From Fomitopsis serialis (lineage: Eukaryota; Basidiomycota; Agaricomycetes; Polyporales; Fomitopsidaceae), in assembly GCF_022376445.1 (NCBI RefSeq), contig NW_025955127.1, positions 21,427-85,426 on the forward strand: a stretch of 64,000 nucleotides of DNA, written 5' to 3'. The notes beneath the pieces are model-generated. The model saw nothing but the letters and a program-made list of their open reading frames with translations. It had not been told where the DNA came from and searched no databases. This document shows, piece after piece, positions 840 to 64,000 of this stretch. A program made the translations under genes and the position numbers. Numbering within the stretch: the first letter of the stretch is position 1; every line of letters starts with the position of its first letter.

Positions 840-2688
840 TCTCTTGCTTCTTCCGCTTGCTGATCTTGTTCGCGTCGGCGACCTTTGTGGCGCCACTTCG
901 ACCAGCCACTAGGGCTCGATGGCTGTGACATTATGGCAGTACTCTCTCGTCGTGAGGATGAGCTCGTGGTAGATGCACCACTCAGGGTTACGGTTGACTA
1001 GCGCGGACGACGGGTGGATGTACACTGGCGTGCCCTCCACGAGCGTCTTGTAGCCCTCCTGCGGGTCTTTCTTTGCCGCGTGACGGAAGTACCCGGAGCA
1101 GATAGCTCTACGGACGCGATTGTAGTCTCGCCCGGCTGAAATGATCCCGTATTCATAACTATAAAGGTACCAGATGAGTCAGTCACGAACGGAAAACATA
1201 CGAGTGCCCGATTGCAACGCACCGATCCATGATACCCAACAGCTGCTTCCGTACATCCTGTGTCCTTCGCATGCTTCGCGCCTGAATGAAGTTCTCGTAA
1301 CACCACGGGTTCGAGAAGTTGCTCGCTTTCCAGCCGTTGTACACGGTCAGTAGCGTCAGATGGTCGCCCTCTGGTTGATGGAACTTGGCCTTCTTCGAGT
1401 CTGCCTGTCCCTGCTTCTCCTTAGGACGGTAGAAGATGCTTTGAACGGACAACATCGCTACAATGGAGAGGATCTCCTCGGAACACCCCAGCTCCACCGA
1501 AGCGATTAACATCTTTGCGAGCGGGGGTTCCATGGGGAAATCGGCCATCTTGCGGCCCACTTTCGTCAGAAGACCTTCGTCGTCCAGCGCTGACAAGGCA
1601 TAGAGCGATTCGAGCGCGGTCAACATCGTCTGTGCGGGCGGCGCGTCCATGAAGTCGAAGCTGAGAAGATCGTTGATACCCATCGCCTTCAACATGAGGA
1701 TGATATGCGCCAGGTCCGTTCGCTGAATGTCAGGAATGGAACTCGGCAACATCTCGTTCCGGAATGCGGTTTCAGTGTAGAGCCGATAGCATTTCCCTGG
1801 GCCCGTACGACCCGCACGGCCAGCGCGTTGTCGTGCTTGAGCCTGGGAGATAGGCATAACGACGAGCGAGTCCATTCCCAGCTTTGGATCGTACGCGTTC
1901 TGCTTTGAGAAGCCCGGATTGATGACACAGTAAATGCCTGTGATCGTCAAGCTGGTCTCTGCGACTTTCGTGAAACGACCACTTTGCGAGAGCCAGGAGG
2001 CGTCGGATCGAAGACTCGCGGTTGAACCTCCGAGGGCAGCGCGGAGTAGATGGGAAGGATGATGAGCTCGGGGACCTTCTGGCCAAGTGCCTTCAGACGC
2101 TCGTACAGGATCTCGCACGTCGTGTCGATCTCCTCCTGGCCCGTCAAGAACAGCAAGATATCGCCAGGAGGCTCGGACAGGTGAATCTGCATGACGGTGA
2201 TAAGCGAGGCATCGAGGTAGTCCGTCTCGGGCTCCTTCGTATACAGGATCTCCACAGGGTATGTGCGACCCGGTATCGTGAAGATAGGGCATCCGAAGAA
2301 GTACTTGGCGAACTTCTCGGCATCGAGGGTAGCCGAAGTGACCTTGAGGTCTGGGCGACGCTTCATGGCCTCTGCAGAACGTATCAGCAGGCTATCGCAT
2401 GCACGAAAGTGTTGCTGACTTACTCTTCAACAGACCGAACAGCACGTCGGTGTGGATGGTTCGCTCATGCACCTCATCAAGCATGATGAGCAAGTATGCA
2501 CTGACATCGGGATCGACGAGACACTCTCGCTGCAGCATGCCGTCCGTCGTAATGCCAGTCAGCGATTCTGCGCGTATCATTGTGAGCGAGGGAAGAGTGG
2601 GGATACTGATGCAGCGTACCTGCATCTGCTCGGGTTGCGCTTCTTCGGGCTCCTTGCCTGCGCCGAGTGCAGTGGACTCGTCGATCAT
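840..2688 (-). pseudogene. PRP22/DHX8-like DEAH-box splicing helicase relic
   Basis: The minus strand carries the C-terminal two-thirds of a Prp22-type spliceosomal RNA helicase, the enzyme that releases mRNA from the spliceosome. Visible in order: [10 protein letters not shown] and [19 protein letters not shown] (motif II region), [15 protein letters not shown] (motif III), [11 protein letters not shown] (motif IV region), AETSLTI (motif V), [19 protein letters not shown] (motif VI), then the HA2 and OB-fold regions ending near [13 protein letters not shown]. It is broken: a one-base deletion near 1,975 separates GSRKVVV from AETSLT, an in-frame stop sits at about 910 where the family reads IEP-WLVEVAP, and several bases are lost just after it. 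The N-terminal ATP-binding part is replaced by unrelated sequence shared with 7.5-8.0 kb. DEVH instead of DEAH in motif II is another sign of decay. Confidence 0.85.
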
Positions 2689-2908
2689 TACTCACGGCCA
2701 ATCGCCCCAGACCATAACAGTGTCATATCCTGCGCGGCCGAGGCGGTCACCTGTCTGCCATCTCCGCCTTGAGCACGCTCTACACTTCACACGCGAACCG
2801 GGTCGTCCCGCGCTCGACCCTACGGCTCACTGCGTCCAGCGCGCGCAGGCGACGGTTCGCAGCAGTGAGAAGTGCGCAAACAAACACCCTGGGACACTGC
2901 GCCACAGC
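2658..2908. repeat. Duplicated flank shared with 7,978-8,217
   Basis: This stretch aligns base for base, with perhaps 10-15% differences, to 7,978-8,217. It begins at a shared GTGCAGTGGACT and runs directly into the 0.9 kb repeat that follows in both places. On the minus strand a short open frame (RRLRALDAVSRRVERGT in one copy) is visible, but I recognise no protein. Its constant position beside the repeat shows that the two blocks were copied together. Confidence 0.7.
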
Positions 2909-3935
2909 GAGTAGGCTCGCTCTACCGCTCATCAAGAGCGGGAGCTCACCATCCGGTCATCAACGCATGGTCGAAACCAAAACGGACGACCGGAGCGAGA
3001 GGGGGGCGGCGGACGGGCGCGCGAGGCGCGGGGCCAGTCCGACGAAACGACCCCATGTCGACTTGGACCTCGACGCGGAGGAAGCACCACATCGTTTCGT
3101 CTTGTGTTGTGCCAACGCAAGACCGAACGATCTGGTGCAGTTTGGATATCTTCGCGGCAAGCGATGTCTTCGCCAGCGCATTCGGCGCGGCAAGTACAGG
3201 GTAGGATGTTTGCCGTCTATCCAGGAAAACGAGTTAGTATGGAATCAAAGAGACGTTTCACGCCACGCACCTCTTCTTCGTGCCCGGGCATAGCCCTCCT
3301 ATGGTACCGCTCCACCGGCTGCGCGACTTGGAGCTCGCCGCCCTTTGTCTCTGTTGCTTTGCCGCGACACAGACGCGCCTGTACACTGCGATCGCTGAGA
3401 CTGAATCGCACAGCTGACACTGTCCCATCCACGGTCGAAGGCGTGAAACGGAGGTGGTCGTCACCTTGGACCTGTGGGTCGATTTCGGGTGGCGGTGAAT
3501 CTGCCATCGGCGACAGTCTCCTGCATATATAGGTCAGCTTTGTGAAAGGACACGCGGAGAGCGCACTTACAGATCGCCGCACAGCGATATCCTGCCGACG
3601 TTCCGCAGGGATTCGTCGCGCCGACACCTTATGTTGACTCCCATGTCGGTCGACTTGGCGGACGTCCTCGCGGGCTAGGCCGCCGTGCTTCAACCCGCCA
3701 GCTGGCGGGTCCCTTCGTTCCGGGCAGACCTCGGACGGACAGTGACGGCGGGGGTGCGACGGGGCTGCTGCAGCTGCGGGATGGTGGACGCCGTGAGCGT
3801 TGAGCGCCGCCGCATGTAGCATGACAGGCTACAAGTCGTCGGACTGAAGCGCTGAGGTCGCGGGGCGTGAGAGCATGACGTAATTCGTCATTAGCGCCGC
3901 GAGATCCTCATGTCGAATTCGAAAACATCGGCACC
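2909..3935. repeat. Dispersed ~0.9-1.0 kb repeat, copy A (longest, most diverged)
   Basis: It starts at a shared TCGCTCTACCGCTCATCAAG and ends near TCGAAAACATCGGCACCT. It is the same family as 8,218-9,103 and 35,969-36,844, all in the same orientation. This copy keeps about 100 bases (roughly 3,035-3,140) that both other copies lack, and differs from them at many positions, so it is probably closest to the ancestral form. It includes an 18-base palindrome (ACCCGCCAGCTGGCGGGT) near 3,693. Minus-strand reading frames cross it (for example one containing NAHGVHHPAAA), but no known domain is visible and no terminal inverted repeat was found. Confidence 0.8.
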
Positions 3936-4424
3936 TCAAGTCGCGCGCGGAGGAGCTTGGACAGCCAGATGGTGAATCGGAGTCGCCACCTCAGGTCGTC
4001 GCAGCACAGAAGGGATGTCTTGATGTCAACGCACGCCTTCGAACTTCGCCGATCAACGCGCGCACGCCCGATGCCAGCTGGAGGGAGCGGTGGCCGAGCT
4101 TCTTCTGCATCATAGCGACGACAGTGAAGACAAGATGCTCGAAATGTGCATGATGTCGTCCCACTGGCACTCGCACACGTTCGTCGCTCGCGCGCAGCCG
4201 CGCAAATGCAACGTCAGTGGCACAAGGGGCATGGCTGAGGTGTAGGAGCAGAGGTCCTCCGGTTGTATTGAAACGCATTAAATCATAATTACAGTATTAC
4301 GGCGAGATTCGATGCGCGACGTAGCCATTGCACTTGTGGAAAGAGAAGAGGGTGAGAGGAGGAAGGGAAGAAAGTGAGGGAAGGGAAACAATCAGGGCCT
4401 CGAAATCCAGGAGACAGTGATCCT

Positions 4425-4877
4425 CTACATGTACTTCGTGACTGAGACAAAAGTAGGCGTAGCTTTGAAGGAGATATAAAGAGCGACGAGGTATAAAACG
4501 ATGACGCCACAGGCGTGGCGCCAGGACGACCTGGTGCTCTGCGAGCTAACAACGCCCTGCGAGATAGCGCCGTCGCCACTCCCTCCGAAGCAATGGCACA
4601 CAAGCGTACGGAAACTCTCGTCATCGTACATAGTCACCGAGTGAACCTTGTCCGCCACTTCATCGTACCAATAACGGTCAATGTAGACTACAGCACAACA
4701 TCTCAGTGACTGAGCCATTGAACCGGCTGCACGCTCACCTCTTGGACAACGATTTGAACGTTCCATGAGCCGATAGGCCTTCCTCGCACCTCGCGAGGTC
4801 CGCAGCAGAAGAAGGCATCTGCGGGAGGCAGCCGTCAGTGGCGGGCCGAGAGCAACGAGTTGGAAGGGCAGACTCAC
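4425..4877 (-). other. Possible exon of an unrecognised protein with one membrane segment
   Basis: A 150-codon open frame contains a plausibly coding centre (YIDRYWYDEVADKVHS and neighbouring acidic residues) followed by a hydrophobic run (GVIVLYLVALYISF). Intron-like GTGAG and CAG signals flank it at about 4,735-4,875, but I could not build a full gene. It may be another relic in this mosaic region. The rest of 3,940-5,040 shows nothing I can name. Confidence 0.25.
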
Positions 4878-27141: not shown

Positions 27142-29986
27142 TTTAACGTTCCGAACGTTAAAACCGGAGTGAGATTCGCCCGTCTCGAACGTTGCGGCCG
27201 GCGCCGGCCGGAGGGGTCCGGGTCCACGTTGCAGACGTTGTCGTTGCCAGCGATCCGGCCGGCTCTGCCTCGTCTCCAACGTTGCGGCCGGCCTCACCAT
27301 CCCTGAATACTGTCCCCAATGATCCACCCGGCCTGTTTTCACAGTACGTTGCAATGCTCCGGCCGGAGTGCATGCCAGCCCTGCCCCCCTCCTCAATGCT
27401 CCGGCCGGCCTGTTTTCACCGGACGTTGCAACGCTCCGGCCGGACTACACCCCGGCCGCCCCCCTACTTCTGAACGATCCGCCCGGCCTCTTTCACCCAA
27501 CGTTGCAATGCTCCGGCCGGAGGGTATGCCGGCCGGTCATCCCTCATTCCCAACGTTGCGGCCGGAGCAGGCAGAATTCAAAGTGGCCAGGCAGTCCACG
27601 CTGCAAACAGTCCGGCCGGTCAACAGATATAGCATTGCAAACGAGCCGGCCGGCCTCAGGCCCTACCACTACAAATGGTCCGGCCGGACTTTTTGCCGGC
27701 CGAAAACACAATGTCTCGGGCCGAGGGTACAGCCAAAACTCGGCCAAAGCAGCCAGCCATTTTGCCGGCCGAGCTTTTGCTTCACCCACCGGGCAAGCAT
27801 TGTCTCGGGCCGAAAAGTTGACCATTTTCTCGGGCCGAAGATTTGAGTACTGCCTCGGGCCGAAGAGTTGGGCATTTTCTCGGGCCGAAGATTTGGCCGA
27901 AGCTCGGTGAAAACAGCCGGGCTGTCAGATTGCCATATAGGGAAATTTGGTATTGACTGGTAGTACTTCATTGATAGACTATAGTATCAATTCCCTAGTG
28001 ACCAAAGATGTCTAGTTAGGCCAGGATGTGCAAAACAAGATTTACTCACAGGCTTCTTTGCACAACAAGTTAATCAATTTCTGAAGCCAGTTTTCTTTTC
28101 CCACACTGTTTGACTATCTAGGATGTGTTGTTTCAATGCATAGAGTATATCCCCAACAGGAATAGTCTTATTCTTTGAAGCTGAATGCAGAACATGAGAT
28201 AAGGGGCATACAGGTATGGTACCGTGCTGAACAATGTTGACTCCTGCAGCCAATGTACATTCAAAACAATGTTTCACCATCTAGAATAGTTCATTTCCTC
28301 ACAAGGACTCAGTTCTCCAAAGGAATAGTCTTATTCACACAAGCTGAATGTGGTACAGAGTTAAGGGGATCATGCACTCCGGCCGGACCATCTCCTATGA
28401 GGATGAGGATTGGCCGGCCGGACTGTTACCAATGTAAATGTTTCTGTGGCAAGTGCAATGTGCATGCTGGTACAACATTTCAGTGTGACACCCAGACAGA
28501 CAATAATCCAAAGTATGTCTCTCACAATATAATGCATATTCACCTTATCTTCATCCCCGAGTTCAGCTTCAAAGAATAAGACTATTCCTTTGGGAGACTT
28601 GCTTGTTGCATTGAAATGTGCTACTCTAGATTGTGGAACATTGTGGGGAAAGCATATTGGCTTCAGGAAGTGTACACAGTATGACATGTATACCCATGCA
28701 CCCTTGCCTTAACTCTGTACTACATTCAGCTTATGTGAATAAGACTGTTCCTTTGGAGGATTCACTCCCTATGGGTAAATGAACCATCAGAGGTTGTGAA
28801 ACAGTGTTTTGAATGTACATTGGCTGCAGGAGTCAACATTGTTCAGCACGGTACCATACCTGTATGCCCCTTATCTCATGTTCTGCATTCAGCTTCAAAG
28901 AATAAGACTATTCCTGTTGGGGATATACTCTATGCATTGAAACAACACATCCTAGATAGTCAAACAGTGTGGGAAAAGAAAACTGGCTTCAGAAATTGAT
29001 TAACTTGTTGTGCAAAGAAGCCTGTGAGTAAATCTTGTTTTGCACATCCTGGCCTAACTAGACATCTTTGGTCACTAGGGAATTGATACTATAGTCTATC
29101 AATGAAGTACTACCAGTCAATACCAAATTTCCTATATGGCAATCTGACAGCCCGGCTGTTTTCACCGAGCTTCGGCCAAATCTTCGGCCCGAGAAAATGC
29201 CCAACTCTTCGGCCCGAGGCAGTACTCAAATCTTCGGCCCGAGAAAATGGTCAACTTTTCGGCCCGAGACAATGCTTGCCCGGTGGGTGAAGCAAAAGCT
29301 CGGCCGGCAAAATGGCTGGCTGCTTTGGCCGAGTTTTGGCTGTACCCTCGGCCCGAGACATTGTGTTTTCGGCCGGCAAAAAGTCCGGCCGGACCATTTG
29401 TAGTGGTAGGGCCTGAGGCCGGCCGGCTCGTTTGCAATGCTATATCTGTTGACCGGCCGGACTGTTTGCAGCGTGGACTGCCTGGCCGCTTTGAATTCTG
29501 CCTGCTCCGGCCGCAACATTGGGAACGAGGGATGACCAGCCGGCATACCCTCCGGCCGGAGCATTGCAACGTTGGGTGAAAGAGGCCGGGCGGATCGTTC
29601 AGAAGTAGGGGGGGCGGCCGGGGTGTAGTCCGGCCGGAGCGTTGCAACGTCCGGTGAAAACAGGCCGGCCGCAACATTGAGGAGGGGGGGTGGGCTGGCA
29701 TGCACTCCGGCCGGAGCGTTGAGCAGTGGGGGGTGGGCTGGCACGCGCTCCGGCCGGAGCGTTGCAACGTCTGGTGAAAACAGCCCGGCCGCAACATTGG
29801 AGGTGGTATTTGAGGAGGGCAGGGCCGGCCGCAACGTTGGGGACGAGGCTGAACCGGCCGGCATGATCTCCGGCCGGATCACTGGCAACGTCCACGTCTG
29901 CAACGTGGACCCGGACCCCTCCGGCCGGCGCCGGCCGCCACGTTCGAAACGGGCAAATCTCACTCCGGTTTTAACGTTCGGAACGT
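27142..29986. mobile_element. 2.85 kb foldback (long inverted repeat) element, non-autonomous
   Basis: Two arms of about 1.2 kb (27,146-28,366 and 28,702-29,986) are reverse complements, nearly perfect over their inner ~900 bases, around a loop of about 335 bases. The ends carry ACGTTCCGAACGTTAAAACC. A GTAAGA flanks both sides (27,136-27,141 and 29,987-29,992) and may be a target duplication, although four extra bases (TTTA) separate it from the left terminus. The outer halves of the arms are GC-rich, built from modules with ACGTTGC and CCGGCCGG about every 40 bases, then TCTCGGGCCGAA words. The outermost modules differ in number between arms. The core from about 27,900 to 29,130 is AT-rich. 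No transposase is recognisable. Proline/arginine-rich open frames across the arms are by-products of the repeated motif. The arms would fold into a long double-stranded RNA if transcribed. Confidence 0.9.
28074..28999. repeat. Decayed 162-bp (54-codon) tandem repeat in the foldback core
   Basis: Modules starting with TTCAGCTT at about 28,564, 28,728 and 28,889 are spaced about 164 and 161 bases apart, and the mirrored arm carries matching copies. The best-preserved module encodes an open frame present in both arms (minus 28,074-28,280, plus 28,796-28,999) containing HSASKNKTIPVGDILYALK and, after a gap, VWEKKTGF. The first central module reads SASKNKTIPLGDLLVALK and later LWGKHIGFRKC in the same register. 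A spacing divisible by three plus conserved amino acids suggests a captured fragment of a gene for a protein with ~54-residue Cys-containing repeats. I do not recognise it. Confidence 0.6.
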
Positions 29987-54639: not shown

Positions 54640-55120
54640 ACGAGATGTCAAGCAATCACACGCAGGAGACCAGTCCGGAGTGGGCGCAGGGGAGTTGTAC
54701 CGCGGAGGAAAACAACCCGGGACACGGTGTGGTGATTGCGAGTCCCCGGTGCGTGGACGACGCGGAAGGGAATTCTTGGTATCGGTGAAAACGATGGGCG
54801 GGGGTCGTTGGTGCAAGTTGACGGTTCGCGGAGGAAGCGAGCGAGGTTCGTGGTACCTCGCGGAGGGAAAGGGGAGATGGGTGGTGCGCCGCACGCTTCG
54901 TCCGCGATGTCCTTTAGTGAAGACCGCCTTTCCTGAGCCTGGTATACTCGATAGCCTTCCCTCCGACGATCCTAACCTGAGCTCTCCTGGATCCTGAGCC
55001 TGAGCCTAACTTCTGCGACCTTCCTTAGCCTAAACGTGAGCCTGAGACGGGACCTGAAGCCTGAGATTGCCCGGTGCAACCTAGATACTGAGTCCTGAGA
55101 GGTAGTGGTAGGTAACTAAC
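54640..55120 (-). repeat. Presumed 3' LTR of the Ty3/gypsy element
   Basis: On the minus strand a purine-rich tract (GGAAAGGGGGAG, plus positions about 55,110-55,121) would serve as the polypurine primer, and the sequence beyond it (to about 54,640) would be the LTR. Its lower part contains repeated CCTGAG words (54,935-55,100). No second LTR is in the window, so the ends cannot be fixed by comparison, and a TG...CA boundary is not obvious. Four GCGGARR motifs (54,702, 54,762, 54,828, 54,860) point opposite to those of the internal region. Confidence 0.4.
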
Positions 55121-55189
55121 TCCCCCTTTCCTCCGCCCCGTCCTCCTAGCCCCCTTCCGCTGCCTTTCCCACGTCCCTACCTCGCTGGC

Positions 55190-55315
55190 ACCCGCTCCCT
55201 TCCGCTCCTACTCCTTCCGCGCCCTTGGCCTCCTCCGCTCCTACTCCTTCCGCGCCCTTGGGCCTCCCTCCGCTCCTACTCCTTCCGCACCCTTAGGTCT
55301 CCTTCCGCCGTCCCT
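55190..55315 (+). repeat. Imperfect tandem repeat of a ~25-30 base unit
   Basis: Units of the form CCTCCGCTCCTACTCCTTCC followed by GCGCCCTTGG occur about four times in a row. Each contains the YYTCCGC motif twice, making this the densest cluster of that motif. It lies just upstream of the first antisense ORF and just inside the presumed LTR, where a promoter for the antisense ORFs could be expected. Confidence 0.75.
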
Positions 55316-55359
55316 GCCCTCCTCTTCCGTTCGCCAGCCCACCGTCGTTGGAGTCCTCG

Positions 55360-56151
55360 ATGCCCGCTGACATCCCGCCCAACCCCTCGACCATTGTCTA
55401 CACCACCCGTTTCTATCGCCTCGTCGACCTCCTTCGGGACGAGCGAGTGGTAGAGCCCCGTCTGAACCCCAATAGCGACCTGGAGTGGCTCGCCTGGGCT
55501 CATGGCGCCCGATGGCTAATCGTACGTGCCTTCTTCCGCCTCATCCTCCATGTCTCGCCAACCTTCCTTCGCTCTACACAGCGGATGCTCTTCGATTCTC
55601 GGTCTCGCGCGGTCGCCCACGGCGATGCTTCCCTTCCGCTCGTTCGCCGATACTCCGACGTGCAGGACCTGATCGAATACCTCGACCAGGTGTTCCTGAC
55701 TCTCCCGTCTCAGCACAGCTACGTGGGCGAGCCCTACCCGTTGATCGCCTGGGCTCCAAACCGTGTCACCGCCGAGCAATCCGACGCTGAGCTCGGCCGC
55801 CCGCTCCTTCCGGTTCGGTACCTGGAGCGTCCCATGCAGTTATCTTCCTTCCGCGCCTCTTCCGACAGCCTCGATGGTCTATTGACCCGGTTCCAAGGCC
55901 TCCTGGACGAGTGCCGCACCGCTAATCGTGACGCTCGTTCCGAGGCTGTCCGTATCGCCCGGGGCCTGAGTTCGGTTGAGACCAGCGTCCGGGACTTGCA
56001 CGCTCGCTTATCGGAAGGAGTGTACGTTCCCGATGGTTATTCGGGGATACCGCGTCGCTTGCAGTTCGCGCACCCTCGGGACGTCGAGGCGATGGAGGAG
56101 GGAGAGGTCGAGGATGAGGTGGCGGAGGAGCCTGCCGTTCGTGTACAGTAG
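55360..56151 (+). CDS. Antisense ORF 1 of the retroelement, 263 residues, unknown
   Basis: A single exon from the ATG at 55,360 (MPADIPPNPSTIVYTTRFYR) to a TAG at 56,149-56,151. The N-terminal half has a Leu/Trp-rich helical region (DLEWLAWAHGARWLIVRAFF), the middle is DVQDLIEYLDQVFLTLP, and the last third is helical (LLTRFQGLLDECRTANRD) with an acidic end (EEGEVEDEVAEEP). There is no signal peptide or transmembrane segment; some hydrophobic runs could pack as a helical bundle. It resembles a capsid-like or adaptor protein in general character only. Intact frame and strong codon-position GC/pyrimidine bias suggest that it was, or is, translated. Confidence 0.65.
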   Translation: MPADIPPNPSTIVYTTRFYRLVDLLRDERVVEPRLNPNSDLEWLAWAHGARWLIVRAFFRLILHVSPTFLRSTQRMLFDSRSRAVAHGDASLPLVRRYSDVQDLIEYLDQVFLTLPSQHSYVGEPYPLIAWAPNRVTAEQSDAELGRPLLPVRYLERPMQLSSFRASSDSLDGLLTRFQGLLDECRTANRDARSEAVRIARGLSSVETSVRDLHARLSEGVYVPDGYSGIPRRLQFAHPRDVEAMEEGEVEDEVAEEPAVRVQ

Positions 56152-56561
56152 CCTCCGCATGCGTCGTGTGTTAATGTTACCGCGCTCCTCTTTTCTTGCT
56201 TTGACCGTGTGTGCGTTGTATTGAGGCTCGCGCCGGGGCTCCCATGTGGGCCTACCCCACATCTACCCCCACCTCAAAATCTTGACCGTCCCCGGTCAGA
56301 CTCCCCTCCCCTCAACTCAGCGCCTCCGTACCGCCACGGGATTATCCCCAAGTCTTAAGCGACCAGCGATCGAACATCTCCCTCCGATCACCTTGCTTCT
56401 CGCGCGCTCCGGTCCACGCGCTGATTGGCTGGGATCGCGTCCTCATCAGGCAATCTTCCTCCGATCACTGTGGCTGAGGTTCCCGTCCGCGCGTATAAGT
56501 CCCACCCGGCGCCTCCTCTTCCTCCGTCGCTTTCCCATCCTCTCTTCGCTTCGCACCGCCC

Positions 56562-58700
56562 ATGTCTCGTCGCTCCCCGTCTCCCTCCGTCATGGACTTC
56601 ACCGCTGGGTTGCCCGATGAGGACTACCCGACTCGCCTCGCCGCCTCCGCTGAACTCGTCTCCCTGGAGGCCCGCATCAGCATCGCCGCTGCTCGGCGTC
56701 CGACCATGGGACGCCACCCTTCCCATGCCCAGGCCGGGGCATGGCTGATATGGGCGAGGCAGCTGTGTTACGCCTGGGTAAGTGCTCTCGACTCCTGCGC
56801 TACGGTCCCTCCGAATCCTGACGTTTCCCCAGGTCGTCTTCGACGTCCACCTCGACTACGCCCTCGTCATGGGTCAGTTCGAGACGCGGATCCGCCCCGA
56901 GACCGAGGCGGCTCTGGACGCGTTCTGGGAGGAGCTGGAGAGCTTCGCTAGCCAGTCCTCCCGGTACCAGATCCCTCTCCGGACCCTCCAACAGGAGGCC
57001 AGGCAGCGCGGCCGCCGGTATGGCACGACCGGCTACTGGGCCGGGACGACCTTCGAGCTATCGCCGGCAATCCTTGCGGCCTCGCACGTCCTTCCATCTC
57101 CCGCTCCGTCTCCCGTCCCTCGTCGATCCCCGTCCCCTGCGGTAGGCGCTCGCCTCTCCCCGGCCGCCGACTTTCATCCTCCCTCACCGCCGTCCGCTGA
57201 CCAGCCGATGATCGACGACGGAAGCGTCCAGATTCCGGACCCTCTCCCCGCGCCCCTGCCCCTCGATCTCCGTCCCCGTTGGAGTACGACGAGCCCATGG
57301 TCGACCTGAGGCCCGCGCTCACCCCGGATGCGCCTCCTCCTCCCCCCGCTCTTCCGTCTCAGCTGACGACCCCGCACGTCCCACTCGCTCCCGACGCTGC
57401 GGCCACCCCGGTCCCGGTCCCTCCGTCTCCTATCGCGCCTCCGGTTCCCTCCCTGGCCGCGCCTCGCGACCCTTCCCCGCCGGCACCGTCCATGTCGACC
57501 GCCGGTCCGTTCGGCTTCCCCTTTCCCGCCCGTCTTCATCCTCGGCTGCCCTCCGCTACGCTCGCGCCGCCTCGCCGTTGTTCACGGAGCGGGACCCGTC
57601 CGTTCCCCCGGTTGCGTCCCTCCCGGTCCGGTCCCCTCCTCCTCCCCTTGTTCGCCCCGTCTCCGTCTCCTCCCGCCGTGCCGTCCATCCCCTCTCCTCC
57701 TCCTGGTCCTCCTCGTGGGAGCGCATTGAACCGCGCTCCTACACCTCCTCCAATCGATACTCTCGAGGACGAGTTCCCGGCCCGGTCCATGTCACCTCGC
57801 GCCCTCGAGGAGGCCGTCTTCGCCAGCGACATCGGCACACGGCTCTATCGCCGCAGCCCTCCCCCTTCCCCGTCCGCTCCTCGCCCCGCTCGTCCCCTTC
57901 CCCGACGTGTTCATCTGAGGCTTCCGAACCACGGAGGCCAATCCGAACCCTCCGCCCCTCCGTCCATTCCTCTCCCTTCCCCCGCTCTCCCCGACAAGCT
58001 CCCGCCCGTCCCCAGCGCACCTCCAACGCCGAGCGACCCCGATACGGCCCGTACGTGTACGCGCCCACCACTCCGTGTCCCGAGTGCCGTCGCCACCGGT
58101 TCCGCTGTCGTATCGACGCCTTGCCTGGTCACGCATGCGCCGCCTGCATCGCTCGGAAGAAGAAGTGTTCCGTCAGCGCGCATAGTAAGTCCCCATCCCC
58201 TCATCCCGTTCTTCGCCCGTCGCGTCCTCGCCATGCTAACCGTGTCTCAACTCCCAGAAGAGGGAGCCCCCAGCTTCTACTATATTGGGCACCACCCCGA
58301 CCTTCCTCGCTCCGCGCTCGACTCTTACGATTGGGTCACCGAGCCGGCCGGCAACCTCGAGGGTCCTCGCCCTGCCAACATCCGACAGGACTTCCCGTTC
58401 GCCCGGGCTCCTCCGCCGGCCCCCGTGCGATCCGCCCAGCCCATCGCTGGTCCCTCGCGCTTGCCCCCGGTTCCCTCGACGTCGTCCACTGCCGCGCGCC
58501 CTCCGCGCACCCTTCAGGATCGTCTCGACTGGGTGGCCGATCGCTCTGGAGAGGTACGTCAGTTCTTCCGCCGCCCCGGTATGCTCGGCGCCCCATCCAT
58601 CCCCGACGCCGAAGACGAGCAAGACGAGCTGGACGACGATATCGAGATGGAGGAATCGGGTCCGCCTCAGCGGGAGTTCGAGTCGGAAGAGCCGCAGTAG
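56562..58700 (+). CDS. Antisense ORF 2: proline-rich protein with Zn2Cys6-like cluster
   Basis: Exon 1 (56,562-56,777, MSRRSPSPSVMDFTAG) joins in phase across a 55-base intron to exon 2, which starts VVFDVHLDYALVMGQFETRI. A helical N-terminal domain is followed by a long Pro/Ser-rich region. At 58,076-58,168 six cysteines occur as CX2CX6CX9CX2CX6C with Arg/Lys-rich spacers (CPECRRHRFRC ... CAACIARKKKC), the spacing of fungal Zn2Cys6 DNA-binding domains. An intron of about 70 bases (58,184-58,255) follows, in phase, then GAPSFYYIGHHPDLPR and an acidic tail ending EFESEEPQ. The proline-rich part changes frame near 57,270 and again between about 57,900 and 58,030, so this copy has small indels or an undetected intron. 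A DNA- or RNA-binding role is inferred from the cysteine cluster only. Confidence 0.65.
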
Positions 58701-59041
58701 GATATAGTAGCGACCGTCGTGTACCATGTAACTCTCCCTCCTCGCTGTTCCTTGTACAATGTATCGAGTGTCGTCCGCGTGCCCTTTTCGTTGTTGTGCC
58801 TTCTCTCTCCGCGGAGCCTGCCCTTCCATTCCGTGGATCCGTCCCCTGATCTCCGCGTCCTCCCCTTCTCGGACACTGCCTCGCGGCCTCCGCCCCTTCA
58901 CCCCCTTTTTCCGCCTTTGATCTTGCTGATGTTCGACACCCTAACTGCCTCGAGGCCGCTAATCATCCCTCCTCCGCATCCATCACCATCTCTCGCCCCG
59001 TGCCATCGACATCGATCCCCTTCTTAAGCCGTCCCCGCCCC

Positions 59042-59788
59042 ATGCGTTCGTTGATGCACCTCCCCTTTTCTTTCCCTTCCGATCCTGCCTCCCTGTCCTT
59101 CTCGATGAGCGGTCTCCGGTCTCACGTCCCTTCCGCCACTCGCCGCTCCTCCAGCGTCGGCCGTCGCCCGTTCTTCGATCCTGACGAGATCCCTCTCCCG
59201 TTTCCCCTTTCTCCTCCGCCGGTCGATCCGTCCGCCCCAGTCCCGGTTTCCAGCCTGACCGTCGAGGAACGGCTTACCCGCCTCGAGGCCTCCTCCGACC
59301 GGCAGATTCGCCAGCAGGAACGGATCTGGAGCGAGTTCGTTGAGTTCCGCCGGACCGTAAACGCGATGCTCGAGAGCCACGCCCGTGATATCGACCGCGG
59401 AGATACTCGCATCTCCATTCAGGTCAACGGCCTCCTAGACTTGTTCCTCGAGCACCGCCGGAACTACGAGTCTTTCCTTAACACCCAGCGCCGCCTGGAG
59501 ATCCGCGCCGGCTTCGACCGCGGCACCGTCGACCGACGCCTGGACACCCTCACTGAGAAGGTCCGTGCGCTTGAAGGGTTCCGCGGATACGTTCGTTCCC
59601 GCCTCGACGACATCCACAATGATTCCTCCGTTCAGGCCGCCCTCGACGTCATTGAGACTCAGCTTTCGTACGTCCTCGAGCACATACGTTCCACCCCATC
59701 CGGTTCCTCCGTCCGTGCTTCCCCTCCCCTCCGCGCGTCACGCTCTCCCTCCGACGCGGCGGCCCTTCCCTCCGCTCCTCCTGCCTGA
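59042..59788 (+). CDS. Antisense ORF 3: coiled-coil protein, about 249 residues
   Basis: Starts at the ATG at 59,042 or, more conservatively, at 59,105 (MSGLRSHVPSATRRSSS). After a Pro/Ser-rich N-terminus comes a long coiled coil: LTVEERLTRLEASSDRQIRQ, then IWSEFVEFRRTVNAMLES, NGLLDLFLEHRRNYESFL and VDRRLDTLTEKVRALEGF. Its 3' end overlaps the last ~130 bases of pol on the opposite strand. The overlap is convergent and both frames are open, which is unusual. A structural, multimerising function is likely from the coiled coil; nothing more specific can be said. Confidence 0.65.
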   Translation: MRSLMHLPFSFPSDPASLSFSMSGLRSHVPSATRRSSSVGRRPFFDPDEIPLPFPLSPPPVDPSAPVPVSSLTVEERLTRLEASSDRQIRQQERIWSEFVEFRRTVNAMLESHARDIDRGDTRISIQVNGLLDLFLEHRRNYESFLNTQRRLEIRAGFDRGTVDRRLDTLTEKVRALEGFRGYVRSRLDDIHNDSSVQAALDVIETQLSYVLEHIRSTPSGSSVRASPPLRASRSPSDAAALPSAPPA

Positions 59789-62700
59789 CTCCGCGCCTCC
59801 CTTCCCCCGTCAATCCTCTTCCCCGCGTCCGACTCTTCGTCTTCGTCGTCTGCGGTAAACCGTTCTTCGAGTTCTTCGTTCTCATCCGGTAGGTACTCAT
59901 CCCATTCTTCAAAGTCCACGGTCTGAACTCGCGCCTTCTCCCTTCCGCGATAGGGTATCACCCGGAAGGCTGCGTACCGGTGCCTCGAAACGCTCCCATC
60001 CAGTTCTGCAAGGATGTACGATCCTCCCTCCGTCCGCCGCACTACGATCATCGGGCCCAGGTACCGCTGCTTCGCCTTCCGACTGTGCTCAGTCTCGATC
60101 TGCGAGTTCCGCACTAGCACCAGGTCTCCGGGTTCATGCTTGTAGTCCTTGATAGTGTGTTCGTTCCGCTTAATAAACTCTTTGACCGACCTATACCTCG
60201 CCTTGAGTACCTTCCGATGAATGTCGTCCAGATCCTCCCTCCGCTTCAGCAACTGTCGGGCTCGATGCGCGATAAACTCCTCTTGCGTCAGCATTTCCTC
60301 CGGTGCCGGAACCAGGTACGTTGCCTCCGCTAGGTCGAACGGGAAAATTGGCTCCACCCCGTGCATGATTCTGTAAGGCGACATCCCCGTGCTTTTCTGT
60401 ATCGATACCCGTTCCGCCCAGAACACCGCGTCAATTACTGACGGCCACTTCGACTCGTTTCCTCCGCATAGCTTCATCGTTGCTTCACGCACGTCAAAGT
60501 GCCTCCGCTCGACGATTCCGTTCGCTCTAGAGTTATACGGCGAGATCTTGATATGCCGAATCCCGTATTTCTTCGCCAGGTACTCCATCGCCGCAAGGAA
60601 CGCAGGACCATTGTCTGTTACTATCTCCGCCACCGCCCCCCACCGACAGAGAATATCCTCGTATATCCATGCCCCAAGTATCGGGCCAGTCTCCCTCCGC
60701 AGCTTCCGGAACTCTGGGTACGATCCTAGCGAGCACCTCCCCTGAACCACCATCTTGTATCCTCCGGCGGCGGCATGTGCATCGTGTCCATGTACACCTT
60801 GTGGAATAGTCCCTGCGGAGTCGCCACCGTCGGAGGGATCTTCAGCCGTTGCGTGCTCCTAAGTTGGCACGCATGGCAAGTACTCACATACCACCGTACG
60901 TCCTGGTCCAGGAACGGCCACCAGAAGCGCTCCAGCAGCCTCGTCCGCACCGTAAGTACTCCCTTATGTCCGAGGTCGTCGTGCGCCTGCTTCAATAGCT
61001 CTAACCTTCGCTCCCTCCGAATCACTCGCTTGTGCTTTCCGTCTGGGTCCCGTCGCCAGAGTTTCCCTCCGCGTAAGAAGAACCGTCCTGCCTTCGCACG
61101 AATTTCCTGAACACCCCCCTCCGCCATTCCCTCCGGTCTCTCGGTGTCCTCAGGAACTCCTCATGCGTACCAGATCTTCTTCCGCCGCATCCGCCTTGTC
61201 ATGCCGCGGAATCTCCACTTCCTCCGCGTCCAGGCCCCCACCCCAATCACAAGCAGAGGATCCGAGCCTCCTCCCGTGCCGGAGCCCCTTCCGCCGGTAG
61301 CTTGGCTCGCTAGATTCCAGGTTCAATCGTAAACGCGCACGCTTCGTCGATCCACTCTCGGGATCTCCTCCTCCTCCGGTCTTCTTCCGCTCGTTCCCTC
61401 CGTGACAGCCCGTCCGCCCCGGAGTGAAGCACTCCGGAATATGCACCACTTGAAGTCGAACAGTAGAATCGCCGCTATCCACCGGTTCATCGCCGCATTC
61501 GGCTGAATGTCCGGGTTATTGAGCATGCCCTTGATGTACTTCGCATCTACCTCGACTTCCAGCCTCCGCACACCGATAATGTGTATCCTCGACGCTCGCA
61601 GCGCCCGGAAGAGCCCATATAGTTCTACCTTTGCTTGTGAGTAGCGCGACTCCCGTTCATTCCACGTTATTGACCCAAACCTGCTGGGCACTTCCTCCCT
61701 TCACGTCCCGCTGCAGTAGGACAAACCCGACGCCGATGACCGAAGAGTCCACGGCCAGAATCACTACTCGTCGGTAGTATAGTCGATCGGAAGGAGCGCA
61801 GGGCAGTTCACGAGTGCTTCTTTCAGTGTTCCATCGCCAGCTCTTCTTCCGCCCCCCATCCGAAGTCAACCTCCCTCCGCGTCAACCTAGTGAGTGGCCT
61901 CGCGATCTTGAGAAGTCCTTGATGAAGATCCGAACCAGCCCCATCGTCCCAAGGAAGGCCCGCACGTCCGTCACCGTCTTGCACGCTGGCCAGTCGCGGA
62001 TCTTCTGCACCCTAGCATCGTCAGGCTCCCTTCCGCTGTATGTGCACTTATGTCCCAGGACTACCACGTCCGGTACGCACAGATGGCCTTCTTTCCCGAG
62101 AACGTCCCTCCGACGGCACCCATCCTTTGGAGGATGCGGTTCATGTTCTCCAGGTGTTCCCACACGAATCGCCTTATGCCTGGATTCCCTCCGATGGTCT
62201 CGTACCCTCCGCCGGGAAGCTCGTACCTAGTTTTCGGCCCTTTTGCGTTCACGTCATCAGCGAATGGTATCGTCACTCCGGAATCTCGTCCTGCATGATG
62301 AACGTTACGTCCCCATGTACGATCTGCATCGCGTTCGTATATCCCATCGGTACTGCCGTCAATCGCAGGGCCCCCAGTGGTGACTGGAACGTTGTGAGGT
62401 CCCTCGACCGAATCGCCAGCCCCCGCTGATCGAATGCTACGAACAAATCCAGGGCCCCGTAGCATGCCCTTCCGCCAAACGATTCCGCCAGCTGCTCGAT
62501 GAACGGAGGGACCGCCGCATCCTTGATCGTAACAGCGTTTAGTGGCTGCAGGTCGTGTACCAGTCGGAGAGACTTTCCATCCTTCTTGACCACGCAGAAC
62601 CATCGCGAGCGATACGACGAGCTTGATGGCTCGTACACCCGGACGCGATTTTGTCCTTGATGATGCGGACGACCTCGTCGTAAATTCCAGGAGGAATCGG

Positions 62701-63946
62701 GATGTTCTTCAGTACCCACGGAATGTGCTCGACCGTTGGGATTACCACAGGATCGAAATACTCTTCCCTCAGTCGCCCCTTCTCCGTCTCGTCCCACGCA
62801 AAGACTTTGTCGTGCATCCCTACGAGCCAGTCCACCAGCTTCGCCTCCTCCGGCCATAGGAATCCGCTTCGTCCTACGTCTAGTGCGTCCCTCCGTTCCT
62901 GCGTGTACCTTCCGCGCGGAATGAACTCCGGCGCGACGATCGGCATAACGGGCATGCCCGCTAGCGGATCGGTCGGCGCCCTTCGCACCACCCTAAACTC
63001 CTCGGGGAGCGTTGCGGCCACTGGTCGTACCTTCCGAGCCACCTTCTTGTAGGCCAGCACCTCGATTCCCAACCCCGTTTCTACTTTGAACACCTCCTCC
63101 CATCCCACCGTCTTCCTCCTCCGCCCCATCTCCAGACTCATGCTCTCCTTCCGTTGGTTGCGATCTCCCTCCGCCCGCTCGAAATCCTCCTCCGCCGATT
63201 CGTAGTCTTCTTCCGCCGGCTCGTAGTCCTCCTCCGCTGAACCATATCCTCCTTCCGCAGACTCGAGTCCCTCATCCGCCGATTCGTAGTCTTCTTCCGC
63301 CGACTCGTGGCCTCCTTCCGCCAACTCATCGTATGTTCCCATCCCACGCGCTCCTCCCGCCGGCTTGTCTCGACATCCTTCAGTCTCGTCGATAGTCTCT
63401 CTGCCTCCCACATCCCCATACTGAGCAACGGTCTCGTGTATTGCGTCGCTAAATTCCAAGGATTCGTTACAACTCGGGAAATGGGTATCTGCAGAGTCCA
63501 TCGACGATCCATAGTCGCTAAGCCTGTCGGTAGGCGCTCCCGTTCCTTCCGCACCCTCTCCGTCCCAGACATATACTGAATAGTGGCCCATAAGATCGTC
63601 TCCGCTCGCGTTGCTTGCATCATCGACTTCTAAAAATCCTCCGCGGGAGGATCTTCGGCCGGACGTCCCTCACTCTTCTTCTTCGACCCCGCGCGGCGCT
63701 CGAAGGACGGTACCATCACGCGGCGGTTGCTCTGCGGATCGGTAAGGACGACCGTCTGGCTTCCGTCCTTGAAGTCCCGGGTCTCCAACAGCTCGCGGCG
63801 AAGAAGGGCCGGCCCAGGAGCACCTCGAAAGGAGCGTCCCTTACCACCTGGACATTCATGACGATCTTTACCTCGTCATCGAACACGAACTCCATCCCGA
63901 TGGCCTTCCCTATCGTCCGAGTGGTCGTCTTGTTCGCGCTTTCCAT
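59659..63946 (-). pseudogene. Ty3/gypsy pol: protease, RT, RNase H, integrase, with frameshifts
   Basis: In minus-strand order: protease (KTTTRTIGKAIGMEF, APFEVLLGRPFF) with a one-base shift near 63,805; a spacer with seven ESAEEDYE-type repeats (about 63,160-63,330); RT (IPWVLKNIPIPPGIYDEVV, SRWFCVVKKDGKSLRLVHDL, YGALDLFVAFDQRGL, FADD active site at about 62,255, GGTFSGKKA, DVRAFLGTMGLVRIFIKDFS); RNase H (LAVDSSVIGVGFVLLQRD, AKVELYGLFRALR, DAKYIKGML); integrase with an HX4HX30CX2C-like zinc finger (HDDLGHKG, CHACQLR) and core (TDNGPAFLAAMEYL, NGIVERRHFDVREA); and a C-terminal domain (GDLVLVRNSQIETE). At least five frame changes (near 63,805, 62,650, 62,280, 61,870 and 60,750) make this copy defective. 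The FADD in place of the usual YxDD fits what I know of this basidiomycete clade. Confidence 0.9.
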
Positions 63947-64000
63947 TACGCATCCTTCGTCGGGGCGAAGACTCCTCCGACGCGCTCCCAGATATCCTTC

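Follow-up and report, generated by a model that had tools for sequence, protein, structure and literature searches.

The stretch of DNA analysed here (the window) comprises 64,000 nucleotides of the basidiomycete Fomitopsis serialis (RefSeq assembly GCF_022376445.1, contig NW_025955127.1, positions 21,427 to 85,426 of the forward strand), and its end is occupied by about two thirds of a Ty3/Gypsy-like long terminal repeat (LTR) retrotransposon on the minus strand. Here, we describe a short word, YYTCCGC on the plus strand and GCGGARR on the minus strand (Y, C or T; R, A or G), that fills this element far beyond chance, has counterparts of different sequence in two related families of the same genome, and may consist of recognition sites for a sequence-specific protein, possibly one encoded by the element itself. 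The genome searched has 66 Mb in 806 contigs; the window runs to the end of one of these (C76) and holds one LTR of an element of about 13 kb, the copy on contig C23 spanning about 13.4 kb. The features of the window copy, including its open reading frames (ORFs), are as follows:

54728..56261, minus strand: 3' LTR, TG...CA, 1534 bp, matching the LTRs of other copies
54730..54920, no strand assigned: U5 end of the LTR, with the motif on the opposite strand (3 GCGGARR, 0 YYTCCGC), a reversal also seen along the 5' leader of other copies
55130..63644, plus strand: span of the 59 counted YYTCCGC sites, from the first base of the first to the last base of the last
55195..55308, plus strand: 35-bp tandem array, 3.3 copies, each unit with two motifs, immediately preceding the antisense LTR ORF
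55360..56151, plus strand: antisense ORF inside the LTR, 263 residues, related to sequences of Fomitopsis schrenkii and of two other families in the genome
56262..56276, minus strand: polypurine tract adjoining the 3' LTR, identified by eye
56562..58700, plus strand: antisense gene with a zinc-cluster-like six-cysteine (Cys6) domain, in several frame pieces in the window copy, with introns inferred
58076..58168, plus strand: Cys6 cluster C-X2-C-X6-C-X9-C-X2-C-X6-C (Pfam Zn_clus, 18.5 bits, E 0.0022)
59105..59788, plus strand: antisense ORF, coiled-coil-like by eye
59659..63669, minus strand: pol and acidic region in several broken frames that are intact in other copies, with an integrase zinc-binding domain above cut-off
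63168..63322, minus strand: 21-nt acidic repeat with the motif as its building block

In the copies on contigs C23, C179 and C290, two LTRs that are 99.6% identical flank the element. RNase H and Integrase_H2C2 score above their Pfam cut-offs in C290, the gag CCHC and protease matches in C23 fall below theirs, and the reverse transcriptase was assigned by eye in the window family, RVT_1 being matched only at E 0.0045 and in the third family described below. The Cys6 gene, which forms a 692-residue frame in C179, and the coiled-coil-like ORF follow pol downstream on the opposite strand, and a third antisense ORF lies inside the LTR.

On the plus strand, positions 55120-64000 contain 59 YYTCCGC and 2 GCGGARR, in good agreement with the roughly 50 and five counted by eye in the original prediction. 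YYTCCGC is expected 13.1±3.7 times (maximum 27) under dinucleotide shuffling and 20.1±4.2 times (maximum 34) under an order-2 Markov model (300 runs each); its enrichment exceeds chance by far, and plain C/T skew was rejected as the cause of the excess by both nulls. GCGGARR occurs at its expected number (1.6 and 1.7, respectively). A 7-mer count against a Markov background, which had been proposed as a check, places CTTCCGC and CCTCCGC within the top three (order-1 model). Few motifs had been seen in neighbouring DNA, and the first 54 kb of the window indeed hold 26 YYTCCGC and 22 GCGGARR, close to expectation. The excess is also present, as had been claimed, in both the plus-coded half (28 vs 13.4 expected, order-2) and the minus-coded half (31 vs 7.2), although the halves are not independent, as they belong to one retrotransposon with antisense accessory genes. 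Site spacing is irregular in the window (coefficient of variation 1.14; the value for the third-family copy on contig C112 is 0.83), and the motif builds the 21-nt acidic repeat of the pol polyprotein, as had been noticed, and likewise the array in the LTR.

The one-strand orientation, originally taken as a sign of selection, is no evidence of its own, because the motif strand follows the purine skew, including its reversal in U5 and the 5' leader. The sense strand of the element (minus) is purine-rich and carries GCGGARR in gag, pol and most of the LTR; in U5 and in the leader of about 0.9 kb behind the 5' LTR, which is present in other copies, skew and motif strand are both reversed. As to an asymmetry beyond the C/T skew, on which the original prediction had been staked, the null model itself predicts a ratio of about 12:1, and the observed 59:2 is not clearly beyond it, leaving the excess over the skew as the signal. 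Orientation was rejected as a separate signal, since the reverse word is at expectation in the gag-pol body without the leader (0 vs 0.9); we take it as a consequence of the purine skew.

Codon usage of one strand had been thought unable to explain the bias, and this stands for gag and pol, less so for the antisense genes, in which the excess is weak. Under synonymous shuffling, with protein sequence and codon counts held fixed, gag and pol of the C23 copy contain 47 GCGGARR vs 18.0±3.3 expected (0/1000), or vs 19.3 when the leader is left out, and z values of 6.0-6.9 (0/2000 each) are obtained for five long frames from C23, C290 and C693; a sixth frame (C693, z 3.6, 11/2000) was excluded as lying mostly outside the element. 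For gag and pol, codon usage and protein sequence were thereby rejected as causes, the enrichment being independent of both. Among 180 CpG-containing permutations of GCGGARR, the eight highest z values belong to overlapping forms of one word (100 shuffles), and among all 4096 hexamers the top three of the window family are CGGAGG (44 vs 19.7), CGGAAG and GCGGAG (300 synonymous shuffles). The top hexamer of host frames has z 4.9; those of comparison-family pol frames have z 6.2 (C160), 5.6 (C460) and 5.0 (C121) at counts of only 3 to 7, with no overlapping word set on top.

A sister family (contigs C300, C44 and C681), with pol DNA 75% identical to that of the window, prefers a different first base. 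In the window element, G stands before CGGARR at 59 of 105 places vs 94 of 282 before other CGG (p=4e-5); in C300, C stands there at 37/79 vs 55/227 (p=2e-4), and the two copies differ in G vs C before CGGARR at p=1.5e-8. Two pol frames of C300 alone contain 15 CCGGARR vs 6.2 expected (synonymous shuffle, 0/2000) and 5 GCGGARR vs 3.6. In an alignment of 3241 columns between window and C300, the CGGARR core is kept in C300 at 9 of the 20 window GCGGARR sites, and G has become C at 5 of these 9, vs 33 of 585 other G before a conserved hexamer (p=8.6e-5). The reverse direction, from C300 to the window, gives 5/10 vs 33/393, and copy C23 against C300 gives 5/9 vs 37/574, C23 being related to the window copy and not independent of it. 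For GCGG without a following ARR the change from G to C is found at only 1/13, and its confinement to the ARR context disfavours mutation bias. In these alignments, the first base of the motif shifts in a concerted way between the sister families. A reverse-strand enrichment obtained by pooling two sister copies (6 vs 2.1) was dropped, as the two have sites in common and the figure for C300 by itself is 2 vs 1.1.

The third family, which consists of the copy on C112 and 11 further matches of equal score, has TTCGAA as its word, with 42 in 10 kb vs 9.7±3.2 expected (order-2) and 50 across the element of about 12.2 kb; under synonymous shuffling it ranks first of 4096 hexamers (17 vs 5.1). The flanks hold 1 TTCGAA in 5.3 kb, although half of this is an AT-rich satellite with few expected. 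As a separate observation, an AT-rich tandem satellite (locus L036, positions 1-1400; C112 from 1719500) contains 28 TGTACA and has a CpG observed/expected ratio of 0.11, a sign of strong CpG loss.

Short tandem arrays are found in 4 of 4 LTR regions examined across the three families: the 35-bp unit of the window (3.3 copies) and a different 52-bp unit in C23 (2.5 copies), both with GCGGARR words, an 85-bp unit in C300 (2 copies) with mixed CGGARR words, where the LTR borders are unmapped, and an 11-bp unit in C112 (2.6 copies) with TTCGAA. The CpG observed/expected ratio is 1.17, 1.15 and 1.32 in the three families; it is 0.94 in C56, a further relative, 1.03, 0.97, 0.77 and 0.95 in four other retroelement stretches that include flanks, and 1.08 in the rest of the window. 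The level in the three families would suit elements that escape CpG methylation, or young ones.

All three families have homologous antisense LTR genes (tblastn E 2e-39 to 2e-30), and 3 of 8 matches of the encoded protein are named, from Fomitopsis schrenkii at 46-52% identity. No match to the gene was found on contigs C460, C160, C121 and C789 in the genome search (145 of 268 candidates scored). Of these contigs only the C460 sequence reached 2.5 kb beyond pol, and the antisense cassette is likely absent from these comparison families. The same gene also delineates a fourth family, at about 62% identity, on contigs C791, C163, C345, C440, C463, C741 and others.

In the Cys6 gene, the six cysteines have the canonical Zn(2)-Cys(6) spacing and do not vary among the eight clusters aligned (8 of 24 matches: five of the window family, C56, C300 and C681), and Zn_clus is the best Pfam family for all eight. 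CGG triplets are the usual targets of zinc-cluster proteins. Searches with the entire Cys6 protein and with its separate regions returned no protein relatives at E<=0.001, and a PDB sequence search gave only E 3.5-5.4.

Three related families, which have the antisense LTR gene and arrays in the LTR region in common, are each enriched in a CpG-containing word of their own (GCGGARG, CCGGARG and TTCGAA), which between two of them differs by a concerted shift. We put at about 0.45, somewhat short of even, the probability that these words are recognition sites for a sequence-specific protein for which the antisense Cys6 protein is the best candidate. The specificity of such a protein would have changed between families, and if the reader is the element's own zinc-cluster-like product, it could cover its own copies and thereby maintain their transcription or protect them from CpG methylation, much as VANC does on VANDAL elements. 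A self-marking code in the full sense, with a word running through coding sequence, an antisense zinc-cluster reader co-evolving with it and sisters ceasing to recognize one another, seems to us a degree more doubtful. The original suggestion of selection on the DNA or on the genomic RNA, for example for binding sites, gains from the synonymous nulls, the first-base shift and the third-family word; orientation and site conservation do not bear it out.

The comparison with VANC is one of working, not of membership, as the class of element differs. According to the available parts of the source, VANC21 of Arabidopsis binds YAGTATTAY, which occurs at high density and with uniform orientation in the noncoding parts of VANDAL21, along with tandem repeats (PMC5735166), and excerpts of this and a second paper give other words for VANDAL6 targets (PMC5735166, PMC10398659). 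As far as these excerpts go, the fungal families resemble this system in a dense, short, family-specific motif, in tandem arrays, in different words in related families and, for VANDAL21, in a single orientation (PMC5735166, PMC10398659). The VANDALs are described there as DNA transposons (Mutator-like elements) with a mainly noncoding motif spread by tandem repeats, whereas here the element is an LTR retrotransposon, the motif also runs through gag and pol and many changes are point substitutions; binding and demethylation are reported for VANC in the same excerpts, whereas the motif here is known from sequence alone.

Caution on a recognition protein as the explanation is called for mainly because density, rather than position, of sites seems to be kept. 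Conservation in other copies, some of which cover only part of the region, is mixed relative to permuted-word controls: between window and C23, 13/17 sites are kept in the coil-integrase part (control 0.60) and 2/12 in the LTR (control 0.18). The sites are therefore not consistently better kept than permuted words, contrary to what the original prediction led one to expect. Three comparisons gave 32 changed sites, of which 19 lie more than 8 columns away from any gap (13/19 in coil and pol, 6/13 in the LTR), and spread by insertion or tandem duplication alone was rejected on this ground; sites seem to come and go, many by point substitution.

Several further results also weigh against recognition by the antisense protein. 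The window Zn_clus match (18.5 bits) lies below the Pfam cut-off of 21; the AlphaFold2 model of the Cys6 protein is poor (mean predicted local distance difference test score 58, two helix-strand units), and a fold search with it gave a single, insignificant PDB match (E 3.9) to 1cld, which we take to be a Gal4-type protein. The third-family antisense Cys6 was found by eye after a putative intron and has unusual spacing, and C56 (locus L033), a degenerate relative with a Cys6 cluster, has no clear motif. Synonymous excess is weak in the antisense ORFs themselves (Cys6 gene 9 vs 4.9, 68/2000; LTR ORF 3 vs 0.8, 39/2000; coil ORF 4 vs 2.1, 248/2000). In comparison families, infrequent words attain comparable z with few occurrences, such as GTGCAA in C160 (7 vs 1.1, z 6.2) and CGACAC in C160 and C460 (7 vs 1.0 and 5 vs 0.7), and in the hexamer scan of the sister family (2.3 kb) the motif does not come first, CGGAGG (15 vs 7.0) being sixth. 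On the reverse strand there is no family preference before the core, either in C300 (C at 11/18 vs 81/151) or in the window (G at 2/13 vs 34/159), and the reverse word in C300 alone lends no support to double-stranded recognition. The high CpG content, finally, may reflect youth.

The alternative that survives best, though we think it unlikely, is a host DNA-binding protein, with elements having collected sites for host factors, zinc-cluster proteins among them, that differ per family and act as dispersed enhancers. Dispersed sites and LTR arrays would fit enhancers equally well, and DNA binding by the Cys6 protein is itself only predicted, from a profile match below cut-off and a poor model. 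Sisters with 75% identical pol DNA nevertheless prefer different words in the same host, and neither TTCGAA (16 in 54 kb vs 18.1, order-2) nor CCGGARR (20 vs 16.2, order-2) is enriched in the rest of the window.

Reading at the RNA level is slightly less probable again: GCGGARG in the sense transcript would be a splicing, export or packaging signal for an RNA-binding protein, either a host serine/arginine-rich-like (SR-like) factor or Gag. It is favoured by the likeness of purine-rich GGA words to exonic splicing enhancers, by the presence of the motif on the sense strand (gag, pol and the greater part of the LTR) and by the lack of a family preference on the reverse strand. This reading is opposed by the dependence of the motif strand on purine skew, by the reverse word in the leader, which is part of the genomic RNA, by motif arrays in the LTR upstream of the antisense ORF, and by the third-family word, which is a palindrome, a form more typical of sites for DNA-binding dimers.

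Mutation bias or base composition, with families differing by mutation spectrum or by chance, would make the words without selection, and it draws on the strong skew and on site conservation that is not consistently raised. We regard it as improbable in view of the excess over dinucleotide, order-2 and synonymous nulls, the lack of enrichment of permuted words and the restriction of the change from G to C to the CGGARR context (5/9 vs 1/13 at other kept CGG). Tandem duplication, by which a few arrays would inflate the counts, is very improbable. Many sites do fall in the arrays at 55195-55308 and 63168-63322, but the majority are scattered (21 of them in 59789-63140, away from the two arrays), and most changed sites have no nearby gap.

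Many Gypsy elements carry antisense genes in the interval from pol to the 3' LTR, to which two papers, in the parts available, assign no known function (PMC7264820, PMC11963269). Retand elements, in the excerpts of the latter, carry antisense ORFs with a predicted DNA-binding domain together with family-specific tandem repeats (PMC11963269). The element described here is like Retand, Grande and RIRE2 of plants, as far as these sources go, in its long region between pol and 3' LTR with conserved antisense ORFs (PMC11963269, PMC7264820). It differs in the further antisense ORF inside the LTR and in having a Cys6 cluster where the excerpts give TRP28 for Retand; TRP28 (PF04195) was absent among the matches of Pfam scans of the antisense frames. 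The available parts of the same two papers describe no dispersed motif for Retand-type elements (PMC11963269, PMC7264820). Among fungi, a Boty-type element of Botrytis is likewise a Gypsy element with an antisense gene, brtn, and the accessible part of that report mentions neither a motif nor a zinc cluster (PMC8365987).

The Cys6 protein resembles fungal Zn(2)-Cys(6) factors of the Gal4 type in its cysteine spacing, and the word contains CGG. Unlike these, it matches Pfam below cut-off, is encoded antisense in a retrotransposon and, in the sister family, has a first loop without the basic residues of such proteins (VTRGTI vs RRHRFR in the window, 0/6 residues in common).

No prior account of family-specific motifs through LTR-retrotransposon coding sequence was found in the titles and abstract starts of the literature searched, most subscription journals lying outside the search. 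If recognition by the antisense protein is correct, then as far as that literature shows no such system would have been described before in an LTR retrotransposon, nor any that runs through gag and pol, and sequence-specific anti-silencing, so far a feature of plant DNA transposons, would reach a fungal retroelement. With a dense family-specific motif, the antisense genes of Gypsy elements acquire a testable role, self-recognition, and the concerted shift in homologous DNA would be a natural experiment on a protein and dozens of sites changing specificity together.

Two other repeats were noticed. A nested insert in the sister-family copy on C44 (locus L039, positions 1744-4748) contains many CCGGCCGG, 15 of them in the locus, and has no blastn similarity to a foldback-like element at window positions 27146-29986. 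The inverted arms of the latter, about 1.28 kb each and 91% identical, hold most of the window's 24 CCGGCCGG palindromes.

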